Source of the DNA: Marinifilum flexuosum
GTDB taxonomy: Bacteria > Bacteroidota > Bacteroidia > Bacteroidales > Marinifilaceae
Length of the DNA stretch: 64,000 nucleotides
Assembly (NCBI RefSeq): GCF_003610555.1
Contig: NZ_RAPQ01000008.1
Coordinates: 1,108,490-1,172,489 of the forward strand
Reading direction: 5' to 3'
The notes under the pieces: generated by a model
Database searches by the model: none
What the model was told of the DNA's origin: nothing
The model's input: the letters and a program-made list of their open reading frames with translations, nothing else
Made by a program: the position numbers and the translations under genes
In this document: positions 26,404 to 37,727 of the stretch, in pieces
Layout of the letters: each line of letters begins with the position of its first letter
Numbering within the stretch: position 1 is the stretch's first letter

Positions 26404-26451
26404 AGCTGTTGATTTTTATTCTTATAAGATTAACGAATAAGGAAGCTTAAA

Positions 26452-26655
26452 GTAGGAAGAAGTACTCCGAATGTAAGAAGAAGTACTCTGTATGTAGGAA
26501 GAAGTATTCTGTATGTAGGAAGAAGTGCTCCGTATGTAGAAAGAAGAACTCTGTATGTAACAAGAAGTAATGTAAAAGTAGAAAGAAGTACTCCGTATGT
26601 AGAAAGAAGAACTCTGTATGTAACAAGAAGTAATGTAAAAGTAGAAAGAAGTACT
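26452..26655. repeat. Tandem array, 21-bp unit, 9.7 copies
   Basis: Exact 21-bp register: units start at 26452, 26473, 26494 and so on to 26641. The consensus opens GTAGGAAGAAGTACTC and closes with TGTAT. Units 4-6 and 7-9 form a 63-bp higher-order duplication; units 5 and 8 are identical, as are 6 and 9. The array lies between convergent genes, 48 bp after the plus-strand stop and just before a bidirectional terminator. The minus strand is open for 85 codons only because 21 is a multiple of three. Confidence 0.97.
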
Positions 26656-29083: not shown

Positions 29084-29794
29084 TTAAAGGATTTCAGTTT
29101 GAACTGCTTTATTAACTTGTTTTTTGTGATTTTCGCTAACAATATGGCCGTCGAATAGTTGAATGGTTCTGCTTGCTCTTTCTGCATCGCTACTCGAGTG
29201 AGTAACCATTACAATTGTGGTGCCTTCCTGATTTAATTCAGATAACAAATCCATTACTTCTCTACCATTTGCAGAATCGAGATTTCCGGTTGGCTCATCG
29301 GCTAAAATTAAATTAGGATTCGAAACTACCGCTCTTGCAATTGCCACTCTTTGTTGTTGTCCTCCCGATAATTGTTGTGGAAAATGTTTACTTCTATGAT
29401 CAAGTTGTACGCGTTTTAGTACTTCTGCAACTTTTCTTTTTCGTTCCGATACTGGTACTTTTTGATATACCAAAGGCAATTCAACATTTTCATAAACACT
29501 AAGTTCATCAATCAAATTAAAACTTTGAAAAACAAAACCAATATTTGATTTTCTCAATTTAGTTCTTTGCTTTTCCGTATAATGTGCAACTTCATTTTCT
29601 ATAAATCTAAAATTGCCCGCTGAAGGATTATCGAGCAAACCAATAATGTTTAGTAAAGTAGATTTTCCACAACCCGAAGGTCCCATAATGGCAACAAATT
29701 CGCCTTTCTTTATGTGTAGATTAATATTTGATAAAGCTAAAGTTTCTACTTCTTCGGTTCTAAAAACTTTACTTAAATTGGATGTTTGTATCAT
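29084..29794 (-). CDS. LolD/MacB-type ABC transporter ATPase
   Basis: 236 residues. Walker [10 protein letters not shown] at about 38-46, Q-loop FQSFNLI, signature [14 protein letters not shown] at about 141-154, Walker [16 protein letters not shown]-loop VTHSS. The length and the [11 protein letters not shown] segment are typical of the MacB/LolD/FtsE subfamily that pairs with FtsX-like permeases. It is the first gene of a two-gene operon with the permease. A sigma-54 promoter lies about 35 bp upstream of the ATG. Confidence 0.95.
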
Positions 29795-29828
29795 GATTGT
29801 CTGTTTTTATTAGGTTCGACGTGCTTAG

Positions 29829-29845
29829 TGCGATACTTGTGCCAA
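29829..29845 (-). promoter_or_regulatory. Sigma-54 promoter of the MacB-like ABC operon
   Basis: The minus strand reads TTGGCACAAGTATCGCA from 29845 to 29829. GG of the -24 box and GC of the -12 box are exactly 12 bases apart, as in TGGCAC-N5-TTGC. The start would be near 29820, about 25 bp before the ATG. The divergent gene encodes a sigma-54 activator. Confidence 0.82.
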
Positions 29846-29928
29846 AAATCGTAACTACCAGTAGATTAATAGGTAAGGCGTTTCGTGGTGTTTGGGTTGA
29901 ATATAAACTGTTTCAAAATCATCCATTA

Positions 29929-29949
29929 ATTGTACCAAAATGGAACAAT
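29929..29949. promoter_or_regulatory. Palindrome, candidate enhancer site for the sigma-54 activator
   Basis: ATTGTACCA-AAA-TGGAACAAT: 9-bp arms with one mismatch. It sits about 85 bp upstream of the -24 box, the normal place for an NtrC-type enhancer, and about 75 bp before the activator's own start, so it could also serve autoregulation. Confidence 0.6.
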
Positions 29950-30022
29950 GTTTTATCTGAATATAATGTTTTGTGTTATTTTTATCCGATACGTATGATA
30001 CGCATATTATAATTATTTACTA

Positions 30023-31399
30023 ATGAAGAAAAATGGGAAACTGCTAATAGTTGATGACAATAAAAGTGTTTTAAGCTCTTTAAAACTCTTTTTAAAGCAT
30101 CATTTTGAATTATTGGATATTTGTTCTAATCCCAATCAGATACCAGGTCTGATTACAAAAGACAAGTATGATGTAGTGTTGTTGGATATGAATTTTTCGG
30201 CAGGAGTGAATTCTGGGAATGAAGGATTGTATTGGCTGCGTGAAGTTTTAAAGCTCGATGCTTCGTTGGTAGTAATCTTATTTACAGCATATGGCGATGT
30301 TAATTTAGCAGTTAATGCCATGAAAGAAGGAGCAACAGATTTTATCTTAAAACCTTGGGATAATAAAAAATTGTTGGCAACACTTCAAAGTGGTGTTGAG
30401 TTACACAGAACTAGAGTGCAAGTAGAAAAATTAGAGCAACAAAAAAACTATCTGCAAAAAGATTTGAATCAACAGTTTGTAAATATTATTGGAGAATCGG
30501 ATGCCATTAAGGAGGTTTTAAGTACGGTTAAAAAAGTTGCTGCTACAGATGCAAATATTTTAATACTTGGTGAAAATGGAACTGGAAAAGAGTTAATTGC
30601 CAGAGAAATTCACCAATTGTCAAGCAGAAAAAAGAATATCTTCTTGGGTGTTGATTTAGGCGCTTTAAGCGATAATTTATTTGAAAGTGAATTGTTTGGA
30701 CATGTTAAAGGATCGTTTACCGATGCGAAAGAGGATAGGATTGGAAGGTTTCAGGCAGCCAATAAGGGAACAATTTTCCTGGATGAAATTGGAAATTTAT
30801 CCATGCCAATGCAAGCCAAGCTTTTATCGATTTTGCAGAATAGAGTGGTTACACCAATTGGTTCAAATCAACAAGATGAAATAGATGTAAGACTAATATG
30901 TGCTACAAACGCAAATATTCAGAAATTGATATCCACAGATCGTTTTAGAGAAGATTTGTTATATAGAATCAATACCATCACTATTGAGTTACCGCCTTTG
31001 CGTGAAAGGGACAATGATGTATTGATAATTGGAGAGTATTTTTTGAAGCAATTTGCGCAAAAGTATGGGAAAAAGTTACCTGTAATTCACCCGGAGGCTA
31101 AGGAAAAGCTTGTTAGCTACTCATGGCCTGGGAATATACGAGAATTGCGTCATTGTATGGAACGAGCCATTATTTTAACTGATTCTGAAGTTTTACAATC
31201 TAAAGATTTTCATTTGGAACAAAAGGATTCCCATGTTAGTTTTGGTTCAAAACCGATGAGTTTGGAAGAGGGAGAACGAGTTATTATCGAGAATTCATTA
31301 AAAAGAAATCGTGGTAATATTAGTCAAGTAGCGAAGGAGTTAAATGTTGGTCGCCAAACCCTATATCGCAAAATTGAGAAGTATAACATTTTACACTAG
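30023..31399 (+). CDS. NtrC-family sigma-54-dependent response regulator
   Basis: 458 residues. Receiver at about 5-125 with DD pocket (LLIVDDNKSV) and phospho-Asp D55 (VVLLDMNFS). AAA+ domain at about 150-380: Walker A GENGTGKE near 180, sigma-54 contact loop GSFTDA (a variant of GAFTGA), Walker B GTIFLDEIGN, R-finger segment RFREDLLYRINT. Fis-type HTH at the C-terminus (NISQVAKELNVGRQTLYRKI). When phosphorylated it should activate sigma-54 promoters; the obvious target is the divergent MacB-like operon. The kinase gene follows after 4 bp. Confidence 0.96.
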   Translation: MKKNGKLLIVDDNKSVLSSLKLFLKHHFELLDICSNPNQIPGLITKDKYDVVLLDMNFSAGVNSGNEGLYWLREVLKLDASLVVILFTAYGDVNLAVNAMKEGATDFILKPWDNKKLLATLQSGVELHRTRVQVEKLEQQKNYLQKDLNQQFVNIIGESDAIKEVLSTVKKVAATDANILILGENGTGKELIAREIHQLSSRKKNIFLGVDLGALSDNLFESELFGHVKGSFTDAKEDRIGRFQAANKGTIFLDEIGNLSMPMQAKLLSILQNRVVTPIGSNQQDEIDVRLICATNANIQKLISTDRFREDLLYRINTITIELPPLRERDNDVLIIGEYFLKQFAQKYGKKLPVIHPEAKEKLVSYSWPGNIRELRHCMERAIILTDSEVLQSKDFHLEQKDSHVSFGSKPMSLEEGERVIIENSLKRNRGNISQVAKELNVGRQTLYRKIEKYNILH

Positions 31400-31403
31400 C
31401 CAA

Positions 31404-32747
31404 ATGATTTATCGTCGACTTTATATTGTTGTAATTGTAAGAGTATTAGGGATATTGGTAAATAGTTTAGTGTTGGCATTTGTCTGGTATGAATATCGTG
31501 ATATTGTATTGTTGATTAATTTGCTAGCATTACTAATTGTGCAGGTTGTATTATTTATTCGGCGCTTGAATAAAGTTAATCGCGACTTGGAACATTTTTT
31601 TAGTACGGTTCGAAATAGCGATACAAGTGTGAAGTTTAGCTCGAATCGAACAAAGGAATATCAGAACTTATACAAACAATTTGATCTAATCAATAAGGAT
31701 ATACTTGGGATAAAAATTAAGAATCAAAATCAAGATCAGTATTTTAAGGTTTTGGTAGAACATGTTGCCATAGGATTAATTTCTATCGATTCCAATGGAA
31801 AAGTATTGCTTTTTAATAAGGCTGCACAAGATATTTTCAATAGAATTCATTTGTACAGACTTGAAGATTTGGATAGGATTCAAGAAGGATTAAGCGATGT
31901 GATTCATGAAATTGAACCTGCGCAAAAAAGGCTAATTTCTCTTCATAGAAATAATGAATTGGTTCAACTTGCTATAAAAGCAAGCAAATTAAAGTTGAGT
32001 AGACAAGAGATAAAACTGGTTTCCTTTCAGAATATTCAGCAGGAACTTGATGAAAAAGAATTGGATGCATGGCAGAAGCTGATAAGAGTTCTTACACACG
32101 AAATTATGAATTCGTTGAGTCCAATAAATTCATCAATTGGAACCATATCCGAGATTTTTAGAAATAGAAAACAAGAGGGCGGACAAATTAACCAAGAAGA
32201 AAGTGAAGATGTTGTAACGGGGCTCGAAATAATAGAGGAGAGAACTATTGGTATGGTTGATTTTGTGAGTCGTTTTCGGGATTTAACTCTTCTTCCATCA
32301 CCTAAATTTAAACAGGTTAATTTAGTTGATCGGGTAAATCAAATACTCAAACTGTTGAAGGAGAATTTACAATTGGAGAACATTCAAGTAAATTTGGTTC
32401 ATCCAAAGAATGGTGTTGAAGTTAATGCAGATCCTGCAATGCTCGATCAAATATTATTAAATCTCATCAACAACTCAATTCATGCATTAAGAGCTTGTGA
32501 CAACAAACAAATTGAGATTCGGGTAAGTGAATCAAAAGAGCCAAGTATAGATATAGAAGATAATGGATGTGGTATATCTGAAGAAAATAGAGAAGAAATT
32601 TTCACGCCATTTTTTACAACCAAGGAGAATGGATCGGGTGTTGGTTTAAGTTTATCACGTCAATTAATGAAATTACATAAAGGATCATTAACCTTTACTT
32701 CTCAGCAAGGAGGTCCCACAATATTTAAGATTCAATTTAACTCATAA
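31404..32747 (+). CDS. Membrane sensor histidine kinase, partner of the NtrC-type regulator
   Basis: 447 residues from ATG 31404, 4 bp after the regulator stop; an earlier in-frame ATG at 31344 would overlap the regulator and spoil the N-terminus. Two membrane helices at about 6-25 and 31-50 with almost no periplasmic loop, so sensing is likely in the membrane or cytoplasm. A PAS-like region (HVAIGLISIDSNGKVLLFNKAAQDIF) is followed by HisKA with phospho-His in LTHEIMNSLSPI and HATPase_c (NLINNSIHAL, DIEDNGCGIS, GSGVGLSLSRQL). NtrY/AtoS-like layout. Confidence 0.95.
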   Translation: MIYRRLYIVVIVRVLGILVNSLVLAFVWYEYRDIVLLINLLALLIVQVVLFIRRLNKVNRDLEHFFSTVRNSDTSVKFSSNRTKEYQNLYKQFDLINKDILGIKIKNQNQDQYFKVLVEHVAIGLISIDSNGKVLLFNKAAQDIFNRIHLYRLEDLDRIQEGLSDVIHEIEPAQKRLISLHRNNELVQLAIKASKLKLSRQEIKLVSFQNIQQELDEKELDAWQKLIRVLTHEIMNSLSPINSSIGTISEIFRNRKQEGGQINQEESEDVVTGLEIIEERTIGMVDFVSRFRDLTLLPSPKFKQVNLVDRVNQILKLLKENLQLENIQVNLVHPKNGVEVNADPAMLDQILLNLINNSIHALRACDNKQIEIRVSESKEPSIDIEDNGCGISEENREEIFTPFFTTKENGSGVGLSLSRQLMKLHKGSLTFTSQQGGPTIFKIQFNS

Positions 32748-32829: not shown

Positions 32830-33405
32830 ATGGCAAAAACAGATAAGATAGAAATTAAGGAGAGAGTGACAAATGTTGCCTATGAGATGATAATGAAGTT
32901 TGGACTTCGTGGTTTAAATATGGTTGAACTGGCTAGGGAGTCTGGTTTGGCAAAAGCTACACTATACAAAATCATTGGAACTAAGGAGGATTTAATCAGG
33001 CAAATTGCCTTTCGAATATTCGAAGTGAATTTTATTAAAATGCTTGAGCCTTTTAGATTAATTGATGATCCATCAAAGGCTACCCAAGAATTTCTTGATA
33101 ATTATTTTGATTATGCAATTCAGGCGCAGAAGATTTTAGTTCAACAGATTTATAGAGAATATCCTTTGATTGAAAAAGAGGTGGATCAGGAATTTAAAGT
33201 GGAGACAGAGTTTGTGATTCAACGTTATAAACAATGGCAGAGCGAAGGGCTAATAAGGCAAGATGTTAATGTTGATTATTGTATTGATGCATTGCAACAT
33301 TTAAATGAGTTTTATGTGGTAGAAAATTATTCGGAAGAAGAGACAATTGCAAGGCTTCGAGCATCATTTACATGTGTTTTAAGAGGCATGGGTATCGAAA
33401 TTTAG
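32830..33405 (+). CDS. TetR/AcrR-family transcriptional regulator
   Basis: 191 residues. N-terminal HTH at about 10-55 (VTNVAYEMIMKFGLRGLNMVELARESGLAKATLYKIIGTKEDLI in outline), with the recognition helix around AKATLYKII. The helical C-terminal ligand domain shows no recognisable subfamily. The gene precedes an adaptor-pump-channel efflux operon in the same direction, and a set of TGAACT half-sites lies between them. It is therefore most likely the local repressor. The ligand is unknown. Confidence 0.93.
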   Translation: MAKTDKIEIKERVTNVAYEMIMKFGLRGLNMVELARESGLAKATLYKIIGTKEDLIRQIAFRIFEVNFIKMLEPFRLIDDPSKATQEFLDNYFDYAIQAQKILVQQIYREYPLIEKEVDQEFKVETEFVIQRYKQWQSEGLIRQDVNVDYCIDALQHLNEFYVVENYSEEETIARLRASFTCVLRGMGIEI

Positions 33406-33445
33406 ATAAATTTAATTTATAGTTTAAGGAGTATTGTTTTATGCT

Positions 33446-33491
33446 TCTTATTTTTGTGATAAAAATGAACTAAGTGAACTTTAAAAGTTCA
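33446..33491 (+). promoter_or_regulatory. Promoter/operator module 1 of the efflux operon
   Basis: TATTTTTG (33449-33456, TAnnTTTG type) is followed by TGAACT at 33466 and the perfect palindrome TGAACTTT-A-AAAGTTCA at 33475-33491. The module recurs about 84 bp downstream. Probable TetR operator. Confidence 0.6.
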
Positions 33492-33526
33492 AAAAAGTAA
33501 TTTGAATGATGTTGGAGTAAACATGC

Positions 33527-33578
33527 TCCATATATTTTTTGTATAAAAATGAACTCTATGAACAATGCGAGTTCAAAA
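33527..33578 (+). promoter_or_regulatory. Promoter/operator module 2 of the efflux operon
   Basis: Imperfect copy of module 1. The shared word TATAAAAATGAACT, or GATAAAAATGAACT in module 1, is followed by TGAAC and AGTTCA. TGAACTC (33550-33556) and GAGTTCA (33569-33575) are inverted. It overlaps the first possible ATG (33565), which supports the later start at 33589. Confidence 0.55.
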
Positions 33579-33588
33579 GGTGGTAAAA

Positions 33589-34668
33589 ATGAAAGTAATA
33601 AAAATTTCTAATGTCTTAATTCTGCTGTTTGTTATTTCGGCAGGTCTTTTTTCGTGTAAAGACAAAAAAGAGAGTAAGAAAGAGCTTATTCAGCCTGTGA
33701 AGATTTACAAGGTGAATGCAAACGGAGATGAGCAGAATAAGAAAGTTTTTACGGGTTTTGTGAAGGAATCCAGAGAAGTACGATTGGCTTTTCAGGTACC
33801 GGGACCTTTGGTTAAATTGAATGTTGATCAAGGCCAATTTGTTAAAAAAGGAGAAGTTATTGCAGAACTTGATAAGAGAGATTTCATGGTAAAGCTGGAA
33901 TCTGCCAATGCAAATTATGAAAATGCTAAGCTACAAGCAGAACGTTATGCTGCTTTGTATGAAAAAAAGAGCACTTCGAAAAGTGTTTATGACCAGATGC
34001 AAGCAGCTTATAAGTTAGCTAAAGCACAAAAAGAGGCAGCAGAAAATGCTTTAAGAGATACTAAAATTTATGCCCCTTTTACAGGTTACATACAAGGAAT
34101 GTTTGTGGAAAACTTTGAGAAAATAGGAGCAGGACAGCCTATTGTTTCAATTTTAGATTTAAATAATCTGGAAATTACAGTTGCCTTGAGTGAGAATGAT
34201 TTCTTGATGCGTAACTCATTTGATTCCTTCACTTGTAAGTTTGAAAACTTTAAGAATACTGATTTTGATTTGAGTTTAATTGACATTGAAAGAAAGCCTA
34301 ATGGTGATAACTTCTTTAAAATGAGATTAAAACTTGATGTTAATAAAAAGCAAGTTGTTCCGGGAATGGTGGCTAGTGTGACAGTTTTTATGAAAGCTGA
34401 CGGAGAAGAAAACTATAAAGTTCCGGTAGAATCAGTATTTAGTGATAAAGGCAAATCTTACGTTTGGATTTTTGATAACACAAAAAAATGTGTACAGCAA
34501 AGAGAAGTTAAAATGTTAGGTTTTGATTCTAATGGAATGGTGAATTTAAGCAGGGGAATTTCCAATGGCGAAATGATTGTTGCAGCTGGGGTTCATTCTT
34601 TACGCGAAGGTCAAAAAGTGAAAATATTGGTAAGGAAGTCTAATACCAATGTAGGAGGTCAATTATGA
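33589..34668 (+). CDS. RND efflux periplasmic adaptor (membrane fusion) lipoprotein
   Basis: 359 residues from ATG 33589, chosen because it places the lipobox correctly (AGLFSC, lipid Cys 23) and has an SD-like AGGTGG upstream; ATG 33565 lies inside the operator. Domain order of an HlyD/AcrA-type adaptor: beta-barrel start, lipoyl half (QVPGPLVKLNVDQGQFVKKGEVIAELD in outline), a short helical hairpin (about 80-140), second lipoyl half (IYAPFTGYIQGMFVENFEKIGAGQPI), barrel and membrane-proximal domain. It links the inner-membrane pump to the TolC-like channel. Overlaps the pump gene by 4 bp. Confidence 0.95.
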   Translation: MKVIKISNVLILLFVISAGLFSCKDKKESKKELIQPVKIYKVNANGDEQNKKVFTGFVKESREVRLAFQVPGPLVKLNVDQGQFVKKGEVIAELDKRDFMVKLESANANYENAKLQAERYAALYEKKSTSKSVYDQMQAAYKLAKAQKEAAENALRDTKIYAPFTGYIQGMFVENFEKIGAGQPIVSILDLNNLEITVALSENDFLMRNSFDSFTCKFENFKNTDFDLSLIDIERKPNGDNFFKMRLKLDVNKKQVVPGMVASVTVFMKADGEENYKVPVESVFSDKGKSYVWIFDNTKKCVQQREVKMLGFDSNGMVNLSRGISNGEMIVAAGVHSLREGQKVKILVRKSNTNVGGQL

Positions 34669-37600
34669 ATTTTACAGAAGCAGTATTAAAACAGCGAAAA
34701 GTATTGCTGTTTGTACTAATCGCTTTGACTATAGGTGGGGTTTTTTCATTTTTTAAGATGGGAAAACTTGAAGATGCTGAAATTAGTGTAAAATCTGCAT
34801 TGGTAATCACTAAGTACCCGGGTGCATCGCCGCATGAGGTCGAACTTCGAGTAACTGATGTTTTGGAAACCGCTATACAGGCAATGGATAATATCGATGA
34901 TATCGAATCACGATCTATGGCAGGATATTCCGAAATTACAGTGAATATTAAAAAATCGGTTAAAAGTAAGGAGTTACCACAATTGTGGGATGTACTTAGA
35001 AGAAAGGTTAATGATATCACACCTGCTTTACCACAGGGAGCTTCAAAGCCAATGGTTGTAGATGATTTTGGTGATGTATATGGGATATTCCTTGCATTAA
35101 GTGGTGATGGTTATTCGGGAGAAGAGTTGCAAGATTATGCCAGATACATGAAAAGAGAATTGCTCTTGGTTGAAGGTGTAAAAAGAATTAATCTTTTTGG
35201 GGAACAGGAAACCTGCATTAATATTGAGCTTTCACAAGAGAAAATGGCATACCTGGGAATACATCCTGCCAATGTAATTCAAATCTTGAATCAGCAGAAT
35301 GGTATGGTAAATCCGGGTAGCTTGAAAGTTGGTGGCGATAGAATTCGAATAGCATCAGATGGAAGCTTTCATGAATTGGATGATTTAAAGAATATTTTGA
35401 TTTCGGCAAACGATAAAAATCCAATTTTCTTAAAAGATATTGCCCAGGTAAAAGAAGATTATGTACGACCATTTACAAGAAAAATGAAGTACAATCAAGT
35501 TCCTGCCATCGGACTTACCATTGCCATGGAAAAAGGTGGCAATGTGATTGAATTAGGTGAAAGAGTTCAGCAAAGAATTGATGAGTTAAAATCGAACGTT
35601 CCTGTTGGTATCAACATCAATCGTGTTTTTTATCAGCCAGAGCGAGTAAGTGTAGCCATTGAGCAATTCATGATAAATCTGATTGAATCAGTTTTAATTG
35701 TAGTATTTGTTTTGTTATTGGCAATGGGATTTCGAACTGGACTTTTAATCGGAAGTGGTTTGATATTTACCATTTTAGGAACATTCATTGTCATGTTAAG
35801 CGTCGATATTACGCTACAACGTGTAAGTCTGGCAGCCATAATCATTGCTATGGGGATGCTGGTAGATAATGCAATTGTAATTGCCGATGGAATTTTGGTG
35901 GATCTGAAAAAAGGCTTGAAACGTGATGAGGCCATGAGCAGAACATCCAAACAGACGGCAATGCCTTTGTTAGGAGCTACGGTTGTTGCCATTCTTGCAT
36001 TTTTGCCTATTTACCTTTCACCAGATAGTACAGGTGAGTTTTGTGCAAGTTTGTTTCAGGTAGTTGGCATATCATTGTTTCTAAGTTGGATTTTAGCATT
36101 AACACAAACCCCATATTTTTGTGATCTGTTTTTAAGAGGCAAAAAATATGAGAAGCAAGAAGGAGAAGAAGCACAAACGGATCCTTATGCCGGGAAATTT
36201 TATCAGAAGTTTCGTCACTTTGTAAAATATTCTCTTCGACACAAAACGATGATTTTGGCTGTTACAGTCTTGATGTTCTTTTCGGCTGTGTTTGTATTTA
36301 AGTATGTGAAGCAATTGTTTATGCCTAATCTTGAGTACAATCAATTTATCGTTGAATATTGGTTGCCAGAAGGTTCGGATATTGAAACAGTAGAGAGTGA
36401 TCTAAATGATCTGGAAACTTACTTGTTAAAGCAGGAGGATGTTCTTAATGTTACTACCAGTTTGGGTTCAACACCTGCTCGTTACACTTTGGTTCGACCG
36501 TTCAATAATAGTCATGCAAATTATGGGGAGTTGATAATCGATACTAAGGATTATGAAACCACAGTTCGATTTGGTGCTGATTTACAGGAGTTTTTAGATG
36601 AGAATTATTCATGGGCGAGAGCTAGGGTAAGATATTATTCTCCTATTTCAACAGAGTCGATGATAGAGGCTAAATTTTCAGGACCAGATCCAAAAGTCCT
36701 ACGAGAATTGTCAGAAAAGGCGGAGAGAATCATGAAGGACGAACCAATTGCGGTGAAGGTAACCAACAATTGGAAGAATCAGGTTAAGGTTTGGAACCCT
36801 CGTTTTTCTCAGGCACAATCACGAATTACCGGAATCAATCGTTCCGATGTTTCTAATGCTTTGGCTTGTGCTACCGATGGATTGGCCATTGGAGTATTCA
36901 GAAAAGCAGATGATATATTACCTATCTATTTAAAGACAACAGTTGAAAAAGATAAGTATGTTGAATCTCTTGAGAATACACCAGTTTGGGGAGCTAAACC
37001 TCAAAGTATTCCATTGCGACAGGTAGTGTCTGATATTGAAATTGAGTTTGAAAATCCGGTAATCAAAAGATACGATCGACGTAGAGCAATAAAAGCCCAG
37101 TGCGATCCGGCACCAGGATACAATGCCCCTGATGTTTTTAATAAAGTTCAAGAGAAAATTGAGGCAATACCACTGCCTGAAGGTTATGATTTAGAATGGT
37201 TGGGAGAGCATAAAAACAGTGCTGATGCGAATGAAAATATAGAGAAGTTTTTACCATTGGCATTTTTATTAATGGTCATCATTATCATGATGTTGTTTAA
37301 CAACTTCCGTCAGCCAATTATCATTTTAACAATTTTACCACTGGCATTTATCGGAGTTAGTTACGGTTTGTGGTTAACTGGCAAGCCATTTGGATTTATG
37401 GCTGTATTGGGAACCCTTGGATTAATGGGTATGATGATTAAAAATGCAGTGGTTCTGCTCGACCAGATTAATTTGGATATAAGTGAAGGGAAAGATGTAT
37501 TAGTAGCAATTATCGACTCTGCAGTATCCAGAATGCGTCCGGTAATTATGGCATCATTCACAACAATTTTAGGTATGATTCCTTTAATTCCAGATGAACT

Positions 37601-37727
37601 GTTTGGAGGAATGGCTGTTGCGATTATGTTCGGATTGTTAATAGGATCAATTATTACATTAATTATTGTTCCGGTATTGTATGCGGTATTCTATCGTGTA
37701 AATACTAAAGAAGTTATGGATTTATAA
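34665..37727 (+). CDS. RND-family efflux pump, AcrB-like inner-membrane subunit
   Basis: 1020 residues, 12 expected membrane helices in two repeats, each with a large periplasmic loop. It exports drugs, lipophilic compounds or metabolites using the proton gradient. Helix 4 carries GMLVDNAIVIADGI, so the proton-relay region has one Asp followed by Asn, as in many Bacteroidota pumps. The second repeat ends with FMAVLGTLGLMGMMIKNAVVLLDQIN and MRPVIMASFTTILGMIPLIP. Substrate cannot be read from sequence. Start overlaps the adaptor stop (ATGA). The channel gene follows 10 bp after the stop. Confidence 0.96.
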   Translation: MNFTEAVLKQRKVLLFVLIALTIGGVFSFFKMGKLEDAEISVKSALVITKYPGASPHEVELRVTDVLETAIQAMDNIDDIESRSMAGYSEITVNIKKSVKSKELPQLWDVLRRKVNDITPALPQGASKPMVVDDFGDVYGIFLALSGDGYSGEELQDYARYMKRELLLVEGVKRINLFGEQETCINIELSQEKMAYLGIHPANVIQILNQQNGMVNPGSLKVGGDRIRIASDGSFHELDDLKNILISANDKNPIFLKDIAQVKEDYVRPFTRKMKYNQVPAIGLTIAMEKGGNVIELGERVQQRIDELKSNVPVGININRVFYQPERVSVAIEQFMINLIESVLIVVFVLLLAMGFRTGLLIGSGLIFTILGTFIVMLSVDITLQRVSLAAIIIAMGMLVDNAIVIADGILVDLKKGLKRDEAMSRTSKQTAMPLLGATVVAILAFLPIYLSPDSTGEFCASLFQVVGISLFLSWILALTQTPYFCDLFLRGKKYEKQEGEEAQTDPYAGKFYQKFRHFVKYSLRHKTMILAVTVLMFFSAVFVFKYVKQLFMPNLEYNQFIVEYWLPEGSDIETVESDLNDLETYLLKQEDVLNVTTSLGSTPARYTLVRPFNNSHANYGELIIDTKDYETTVRFGADLQEFLDENYSWARARVRYYSPISTESMIEAKFSGPDPKVLRELSEKAERIMKDEPIAVKVTNNWKNQVKVWNPRFSQAQSRITGINRSDVSNALACATDGLAIGVFRKADDILPIYLKTTVEKDKYVESLENTPVWGAKPQSIPLRQVVSDIEIEFENPVIKRYDRRRAIKAQCDPAPGYNAPDVFNKVQEKIEAIPLPEGYDLEWLGEHKNSADANENIEKFLPLAFLLMVIIIMMLFNNFRQPIIILTILPLAFIGVSYGLWLTGKPFGFMAVLGTLGLMGMMIKNAVVLLDQINLDISEGKDVLVAIIDSAVSRMRPVIMASFTTILGMIPLIPDELFGGMAVAIMFGLLIGSIITLIIVPVLYAVFYRVNTKEVMDL

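Follow-up and report, generated by a model that had tools for sequence, protein, structure and literature searches.

Our analysis of a 64,000-nucleotide stretch of Marinifilum flexuosum DNA (the window) points to a closed-loop transporter switch under sigma-54 control as the best explanation of a divergent ABC transporter and two-component locus, an explanation that we hold to be fairly probable. Its promoter half, in which regulator dimers on phased dyads would oligomerise and loop to the sigma-54 polymerase so that the transporter is made, is very probable on sequence grounds. In the mechanism that we propose, the kinase would phosphorylate the NtrC-type regulator, whose dimers would bind two tandem sites (29909-29949), separated by two helical turns, and assemble on them into oligomers; through looping, the bound regulator would remodel the sigma-54 RNA polymerase waiting at 29829-29844, and the remodelled polymerase would switch on the NBD-permease operon. 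The most likely task of the transporter would then be to pull an amphiphile, either a membrane-active peptide or a lipid-like molecule, out of the inner membrane at its outer face. Binding, activation, the partnership of kinase and transporter, and the substrate are what we infer for this locus; the features concerned are collected in Table 1.

Table 1. Features of the divergent locus, with positions in the window
Feature	Position	Strand	Sequence or basis
Duplicated type VII ABC permease, 782 aa	26724..29072	-	Pfam: two MacB_PCD and two FtsX stretches
ABC ATPase (NBD), first gene of the operon	29084..29794	-	ABC_tran (Pfam)
Predicted transcription start, ABC operon	29818	-	12 nt downstream of the -12 base; inferred from the -24/-12 spacing
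Predicted sigma-54 promoter, ABC operon	29829..29844	-	TGGCACAAGTATCGCA; 16-bp core, conserved TGG and -13 G, enrichment in relatives
Second site of the tandem pair, promoter-proximal, less symmetric	29909..29925	.	TGTTTCAAAATCATCCA on +; identity 0.89 across 7 representatives
Strong palindrome, predicted enhancer	29929..29949	.	ATTGTACCA-AAA-TGGAACAAT; 21 bp
17-bp core of the strong palindrome	29931-29947	+ / -	TGTACCAAAATGGAACA (+) / TGTTCCATTTTGGTACA (-); centre about -121
NtrC-type response regulator / sigma-54 enhancer-binding protein	30023..31399	+	Pfam, PDB relatives NtrC1/ZraR, sequence
Histidine kinase	31404..32747	+	predicted: two membrane helices, ~3-residue turn, cytosolic PAS-like fold, DHp, CA

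A predicted sigma-54 promoter below tandem dyads

The initial annotation had read a -24/-12 site with exact spacing ahead of the ABC operon, and the corresponding letters, TTGGCACAAGTATCGCA, are present on the minus strand of the intergenic region (29795-30022). The promoter core at 29844-29829 matches 10 of the 11 letters of the sigma-54 consensus that we used (TGGCAC-N5-TTGCW with GG-N10-GC), with one mismatch, and keeps the GG-N10-GC spacing. Across the whole window, -24/-12 matches with at most two mismatches are not enriched (34 against 26.6 expected); when the intergenic region alone was considered (row L062), none of 100 shuffles reached the score of the promoter. Since a match means little by itself at the scale of the window, it is conservation that provides strong evidence for the site: no variation occurs among the seven same-family representatives at the -24 TGG or at the G of position -13, while the -12 C is kept in three, with A in three others and T in one. 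The genome holds one match to RpoN. The exact pattern TGGCACN5TWGCW occurs five times in the genome, and because two of these matches fall within long reading frames (L203, L204), searching for single sigma-54 sites is a weak approach. The main promoter consensus of Bacteroidota differs from the one used in our sigma-70 scan near the regulator gene, which found one site against 2.1 in shuffles and for that reason says little.

The 21-bp palindrome that had been noted about 85 bp further upstream is also present, complementary at eight of nine arm positions and 85 bp above the -24 box. To this palindrome, the only element of its kind in the initial annotation, we add a second site that lies 22 bp from the strong dyad on the promoter side and is conserved though poorly palindromic. 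The block that spans both sites (29909-29947) ranks first among the 189 windows of 39 bp in the intergenic region across the seven same-family representatives, with an identity of 0.85 against 0.49 for the rest of the region and 0.81 for neighbouring coding sequence, and is also visible across the whole ortholog alignment.

No second copy of the palindrome occurs in the genome, where the sites most like it differ by two mismatches, and a genome search for it at other -24/-12 sites, a check put forward in the initial annotation, was negative at up to one mismatch. A loose search places it at 35 positions against 11 for the reversed pattern, and paralogous modules of the same genome carry other dyads. 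Exact dyad pairs match the genome four times against once for the reversed pattern; two of these matches overlap in a coding repeat (L199/L200), one belongs to module C and one is a candidate target. A dyad pair at positions 1501-1539 of L201 (G000:C2:353960-353998) includes TGTTGGATTATCCAACA and is followed by TGGCACAATACTTGAT and then by a gene with an AAT/choloylglycine-hydrolase-like domain (PF03417); because its dyad is similar to the one in module C (L175), this pair may be a target in trans of the regulator of that module.

On the other side of the intergenic region, the divergent gene had been described as a sigma-54 activator followed by its kinase. This description stands, as the receiver, Sigma54_activat (AAA+) and HTH_8 (Fis-type HTH) domains of the regulator all exceed Pfam cut-offs and a HATPase_c kinase follows it.

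Recurrence of the layout in Bacteroidota

A layout that recurs in Bacteroidota relatives places pairs of TGT-N10/11-ACA dyads some 86-122 bp upstream of a predicted sigma-54 start. The operons behind these starts are of the type VII (MacB/FtsX-like) ABC, adaptor or outer-membrane-factor kind. In this genome, five of the ten strong sigma-54 activators are divergent to MacB/FtsX-type operons, and each of the five has a -24/-12-like site facing the ABC operon, with 8 to 10 of 11 letters matched. Our first set of loci comprised the best 80 named loci among the matches listed, 30 loci from the window genome and its relatives, and four paralogs. The first gene of the divergent operon, whose label came in part from crude text rules on the N-terminus (one or more of the 'MFP' labels, that of L137 included, seem to mark an outer-membrane factor), was an NBD in 25 cases among the matches listed, a permease in 11, an adaptor in 29, an outer-membrane factor in 7 and another gene in 21, with no such gene in 18.

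Among the matches listed, 72 regions faced a divergent ABC, adaptor or outer-membrane-factor gene, a number that includes two duplicate records and near-identical orthologs. A sigma-54 site of at least 9/11 lies on the right strand in 44 of them and on the wrong strand in 5, against 2.03 expected from shuffles; 28 of the 72, and 7 of the 27 hold-out regions described below, have no site at 9/11. Perfect inverted repeats beginning with TGT number 17 against 0.56 expected in 68 regions among the matches listed, after L092, L093 and regions outside 60-600 bases had been dropped. With 14 near-duplicate loci dropped by name and the same 60-600-base limits, 56 regions among the matches listed contain 23 pairs of TGT-N11-ACA dyads spaced 21, 22 or 23 bp apart (0.19 expected), and at least one dyad occurs in 45 of the 56 (19.6 expected).

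The placement of the dyads relative to the promoter is regular as well. Of the 35 loci that have a sigma-54 site of 9/11 or better after de-duplication, 32 carry an upstream dyad scoring at least 10. Measured from the predicted start, dyad centres cluster about -87, -99, -109 or -120 (three outliers are at -147, -167 and -173), so that the dyad-to-promoter distance moves in steps of about 11 bp. This helical phasing was first seen post hoc, then tested by jitter and then tried on unseen loci. Jittered positions were as regular in 1 of 5000 trials with 32 loci, in 4 of 5000 with 23, and in 262 of 5000 with 16 loci, one per subclade, where the signal weakens to a p of about 0.05.

Because several of these patterns had been seen after the fact, we fetched 60 further regulator loci, hand-picked from the matches listed, of which 40 had a recognised divergent transporter, adaptor or outer-membrane-factor gene. 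Of these, 39 regions were at least 80 bases long, and removal, under rules set in advance of scoring, of nine that resembled training regions and three that resembled each other left 27. In this hold-out set, the sigma-54 site lies on the right strand in 20 of 27 regions and on the wrong strand in none (0.84 expected), perfect TGT dyads number 7 against 0.20 expected, and dyad pairs at 21-23 bp number 10 against 0.06. Helix class and dyad spacer agree in all 21 scorable cases. With the period fixed beforehand, the mean cosine of the phase is 0.67 (n = 20, including one outlier at -175), and none of 5000 jitters was as good. The regulators of the hold-out set are relatives of those in the first, so the test offers independent DNA rather than independent ancestry. 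Conservation, recurrence in relatives and the hold-out test together favour the earlier proposal that the NtrC-type regulator would act through the palindrome on the sigma-54 promoter.

A kinase predicted to lack an outer sensor

The initial annotation made no point of the lack of a periplasmic sensor domain in the kinase. The AF2 model of the protein, whose start is best placed at 31404, has a pLDDT of 83.6 and places helices at residues 3-30 and 34-70, followed by a further helix, a PAS-like fold at 124-210, DHp and CA; on this model, the kinase is predicted to be without a periplasmic domain. The same anatomy is widespread, as a hydropathy scan found two membrane helices 0-12 residues apart in 101 of 110 kinases, the other nine having one helix above threshold (a first-pass scan had given 99 of 112), and found it in none of six kinases near non-ABC enhancer-binding proteins of the same genome. 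Fold matches are ordinary cytosolic kinase structures and add nothing on sensing. With no domain predicted outside the membrane, the signal would have to reach the kinase via the membrane or the cytosol, and a kinase of this build, lacking an external sensor, may take its cue from the pump. We consider the chances about even that the kinase is activated by transporter cycling, as its anatomy and the analogy with Bce modules would suggest.

In the Bce modules (BceRSAB) of Bacillota, too, a type VII ABC transporter neighbours a two-component system, and the regulator of that system drives expression of the transporter genes; unlike BceR, which we take to be OmpR-type, the regulator here is NtrC-type and is paired with a sigma-54 promoter. 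The Bce kinase likewise lacks a sensor domain, and by the criterion given in the part of PMC3023708 available to us it has exactly two helices joined by a very short loop; the kinase modelled here differs by its predicted cytosolic PAS-like fold. Also unlike the Bce permease, whose exactly ten helices carry a single large loop from TM7 to TM8, the permease here is modelled with 8 helices and two periplasmic domains. The module is therefore not a Bce module, since permease, regulator class and promoter class all differ. In the accessible text of the same 2011 paper (PMC3023708), Bce modules are restricted to Firmicutes apart from one exception, and the portion of PMC10314905 at hand presents them as proposed flux-sensing modules.

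A kinase that senses for itself, either through its cytosolic PAS-like domain or by reading membrane state through its helix hairpin, could work the same promoter switch with the transporter as output only. We regard this alternative as possible, if on balance doubtful. The PAS-like fold at 124-210 in the AF2 model fits it, as do weak Pfam PAS matches below the cut-off, while the sensor-less anatomy kept in so large a share of the kinases speaks against it. The neighbourhoods of fully flanked regulator loci bear on both sides. A kinase relative is found in 54 of 54 of these loci and an NBD or permease relative within 5 kb in 41, a proximity that argues for a kinase reading its transporter, as in the Bce arrangement described in the available parts of PMC3023708 and PMC10314905. 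The remaining 13 loci favour self-sensing; they indicate that the regulator-kinase pair needs no neighbouring transporter and are the main count against a strict partnership of kinase and transporter. The loci without an NBD or permease within 5 kb are L104, L111, L113, L117, L121, L125, L130, L134, L136, L138, L143, L146 and L158; at L134, there is a divergent FKBP-like gene, and a sigma-54-like site faces the regulator itself.

The transporter and its operon

The AF2 model of the permease (pLDDT 83.3) has 8 long helices, which we read as membrane-spanning, and two periplasmic domains. The best Foldseek match is YbbAP of Escherichia coli (9ge6; E 1.1e-20, TM-score 0.48), followed by MacB, LolCDE and BceAB-S. 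Three family names were tried and rejected: DarD, the best NCBIfam match of the NBD, at 284 bits under a cut-off of 375; ADOP (TIGR03434), at 299.6 against a curated cut-off of 622.3; and DarB, at 167.9 against a curated cut-off of 700.

The initial annotation had called the four genes a stress module whose transporter probably performs periplasmic extrusion rather than uptake. The stress label is unsupported, and so is extrusion, given an operon without adaptor or exit duct and a best solved fold, YbbAP, that the available text describes as an inner-membrane extractor. Neither an adaptor nor an exit duct gene was found in the window operon, nor as the next gene behind the permease in any of the 13 orthologous loci fetched. 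In 12 same-family loci, a change of strand behind the last permease marks the end of the operon, which therefore consists of the NBD and one or two permeases. With modest confidence, we prefer a transporter that extracts an amphiphile from the membrane to one that drives efflux across the outer membrane, because YbbAP is the best fold match and the operon has no further gene. According to the part of PMC12646458 available to us, YbbAP-TesA extracts hydrophobic compounds from the inner membrane. YbbAP(-TesA) likewise has its NBD on a separate protein and a permease that is duplicated within one chain and bears two MacB-like periplasmic domains; unlike it, the operon studied here has no TesA-like gene, and YbbP has ten helices (PMC12646458, same text) against the 8 of our model. 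The term 'two-component' is absent from the accessible text of that paper.

It is unlikely, though worth weighing, that the transporter works instead as a MacAB-like tripartite efflux pump with a borrowed adaptor and exit duct, for example the RND adaptor at 33565-34668. The permease shares its MacB_PCD/FtsX fold with MacAB-TolC and has MacB as its second-best fold match, behind YbbAP; unlike in MacAB-TolC, the NBD is a separate gene, the permease is duplicated, and the operon has no adaptor or exit duct. Adaptor or outer-membrane-factor genes do open related modules, and 10 of the 13 fetched orthologous loci have an RND adaptor gene further downstream, which favours a borrowed adaptor; against this, the nearby adaptor is grouped with its own RND pump and a TetR gene, the operon of the same-family loci ends at an opposite-strand gene, and at L198 a protease-like gene comes next after the permease.

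The claim that the four genes form a self-contained module stands in part. All four are present in 12 of 12 same-family loci. The claim does not extend to L198 (G135:C4; same order, another family), where the fetched stretch has the permease and the regulator but lacks relatives of the kinase and the NBD, and where the gene next to the permease encodes a secreted protein of 356 aa that looks like a protease (HExxH-type motif), nor does it accommodate the second permeases or the shared downstream genes. Synteny exceeds the four genes, since TetR and RND-adaptor genes also follow in those 10 of 13 orthologous loci; in the window, TetR, RND adaptor and AcrB-like pump genes occupy 32830-37727 after the module. 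A second permease is found in two orthologous loci (L194 and L197). The permeases of L189-L197 fall into two levels of identity to that of the window, about 48-51% and 79-84%, with both levels adjacent in L194 and L197, perhaps the result of an old duplication with differential loss. Between the permease and a TPR gene, the window has a tandem repeat of 21/63-bp units (26449-26655; 3.3 copies of 63 bp).

Recognition helices and dyad classes

The window regulator has the L1 loop GSFTDA and the recognition helix GRQTLYRK. GAFTDA, GSFTDA or GAYTDA is found in 66 of 83 relatives, the pattern being unmatched in 17. In the text of PMC4641369 accessible to us, GAFTDA, GAYTDA and GSFTGA are permissive variants of the GAFTGA loop that contacts sigma-54, and GSFTDA is outside that list. 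GAFTDA or GSFTDA marks the ABC-linked activators of this genome, and the three other enhancer-binding proteins there in which the loop pattern was found have GAFTGA or GSFTGA.

The recognition helix and the dyad vary together. Helices ending in LYRR go with 16-bp dyads, TGT-N10-ACA, whose inner letters are mostly NCG, and helices ending in LYxK go with 17-bp dyads (two loci without a readable HTH, and then duplicate HTH/dyad combinations, were dropped from this comparison, 39 to 34). With the spacer fixed by helix class beforehand, the base next to the spacer in the 17-bp class follows residue x, with C for R in 27 of 30 half-sites, A for N in 71 of 74 and G for D in 8 of 12; K is mixed, as are the KK and EK helices, and the RR class has G in 43 and A in 21. 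The GRQTLYRK helix of the window pairs with TGTTCC/TGTACC. The pairing of R with C is seen again in L132, which the tree sets away from the clade of the window regulator but on a long branch, and in L226, which belongs to the hold-out set and lies outside the tree; L075, also R, is an exception whose best-scoring dyad reads A. When helix class was compared with spacer, a Fisher test gave a p of about 1e-9, which we rejected as a measure of significance, because the match of spacer to class is a single change on the regulator tree and so small a p does not stand for many independent events.

That the palindrome belongs to another factor or to the regulator's own promoter, and lies near the sigma-54 site by chance, is very improbable: autoregulation is common and the ABC gene lies farther from the palindrome than the regulator gene does, but dyad class tracks the recognition helix of the neighbouring regulator, and across 35 loci dyads lie upstream of the -24 box in 68 cases against 9 downstream, a count uncorrected for the greater length of the upstream stretch. 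Autoregulation may occur besides. As predicted enhancers of the sigma-54 promoter, the dyads find a likeness in the NtrC/glnA architecture, which also has dyads upstream of a -24/-12 site, and differ from it in the TGT outer triplet, the 21-23 bp pairing, the L1 loop GAFTDA/GSFTDA and the transporter target. The NtrC recognition helix presumably also has R at the position that is paired here with C. The NtrC enhancer TGCACC(A/T)4TGGTGCA, as given in Table 1 of PMC4987338, the part of that paper available to us, is resembled by TGTTCC(A/T)4TGGTACA here, and its consensus has C at the same place next to the spacer as the window dyad.

Implications

Sigma-54 control of COG0577 FtsX-like permeases in Bacteroidia has been predicted and claimed as first evidence (PMC12316311, 2025), in a text whose accessible part contains no enhancer pair, kinase anatomy or divergent module. 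Searches of an open-access library turned up no earlier account of this divergent module, of its paired dyads or of a sensor-less kinase of this kind.

We tentatively propose that Bacteroidota may own a widespread and independently built counterpart of the flux-sensing Bce modules, in which a sensor-less kinase would read a type VII ABC transporter and fire a sigma-54 promoter by way of two phased dyads; a single genome could carry several such modules (five here), insulated from one another by a recognition-helix/dyad code. To this proposal we give slightly less than even weight. The pairing of dyad and helix offers a route to assign the sites of these Bacteroidota sigma-54 regulators, and hence their regulons, from sequence. 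Should the kinase indeed read its transporter, need sensing of the transporter-based kind, described in 2011 as confined to Firmicutes but for one exception (PMC3023708), would extend to a major Gram-negative phylum, where it would work through a different promoter class.
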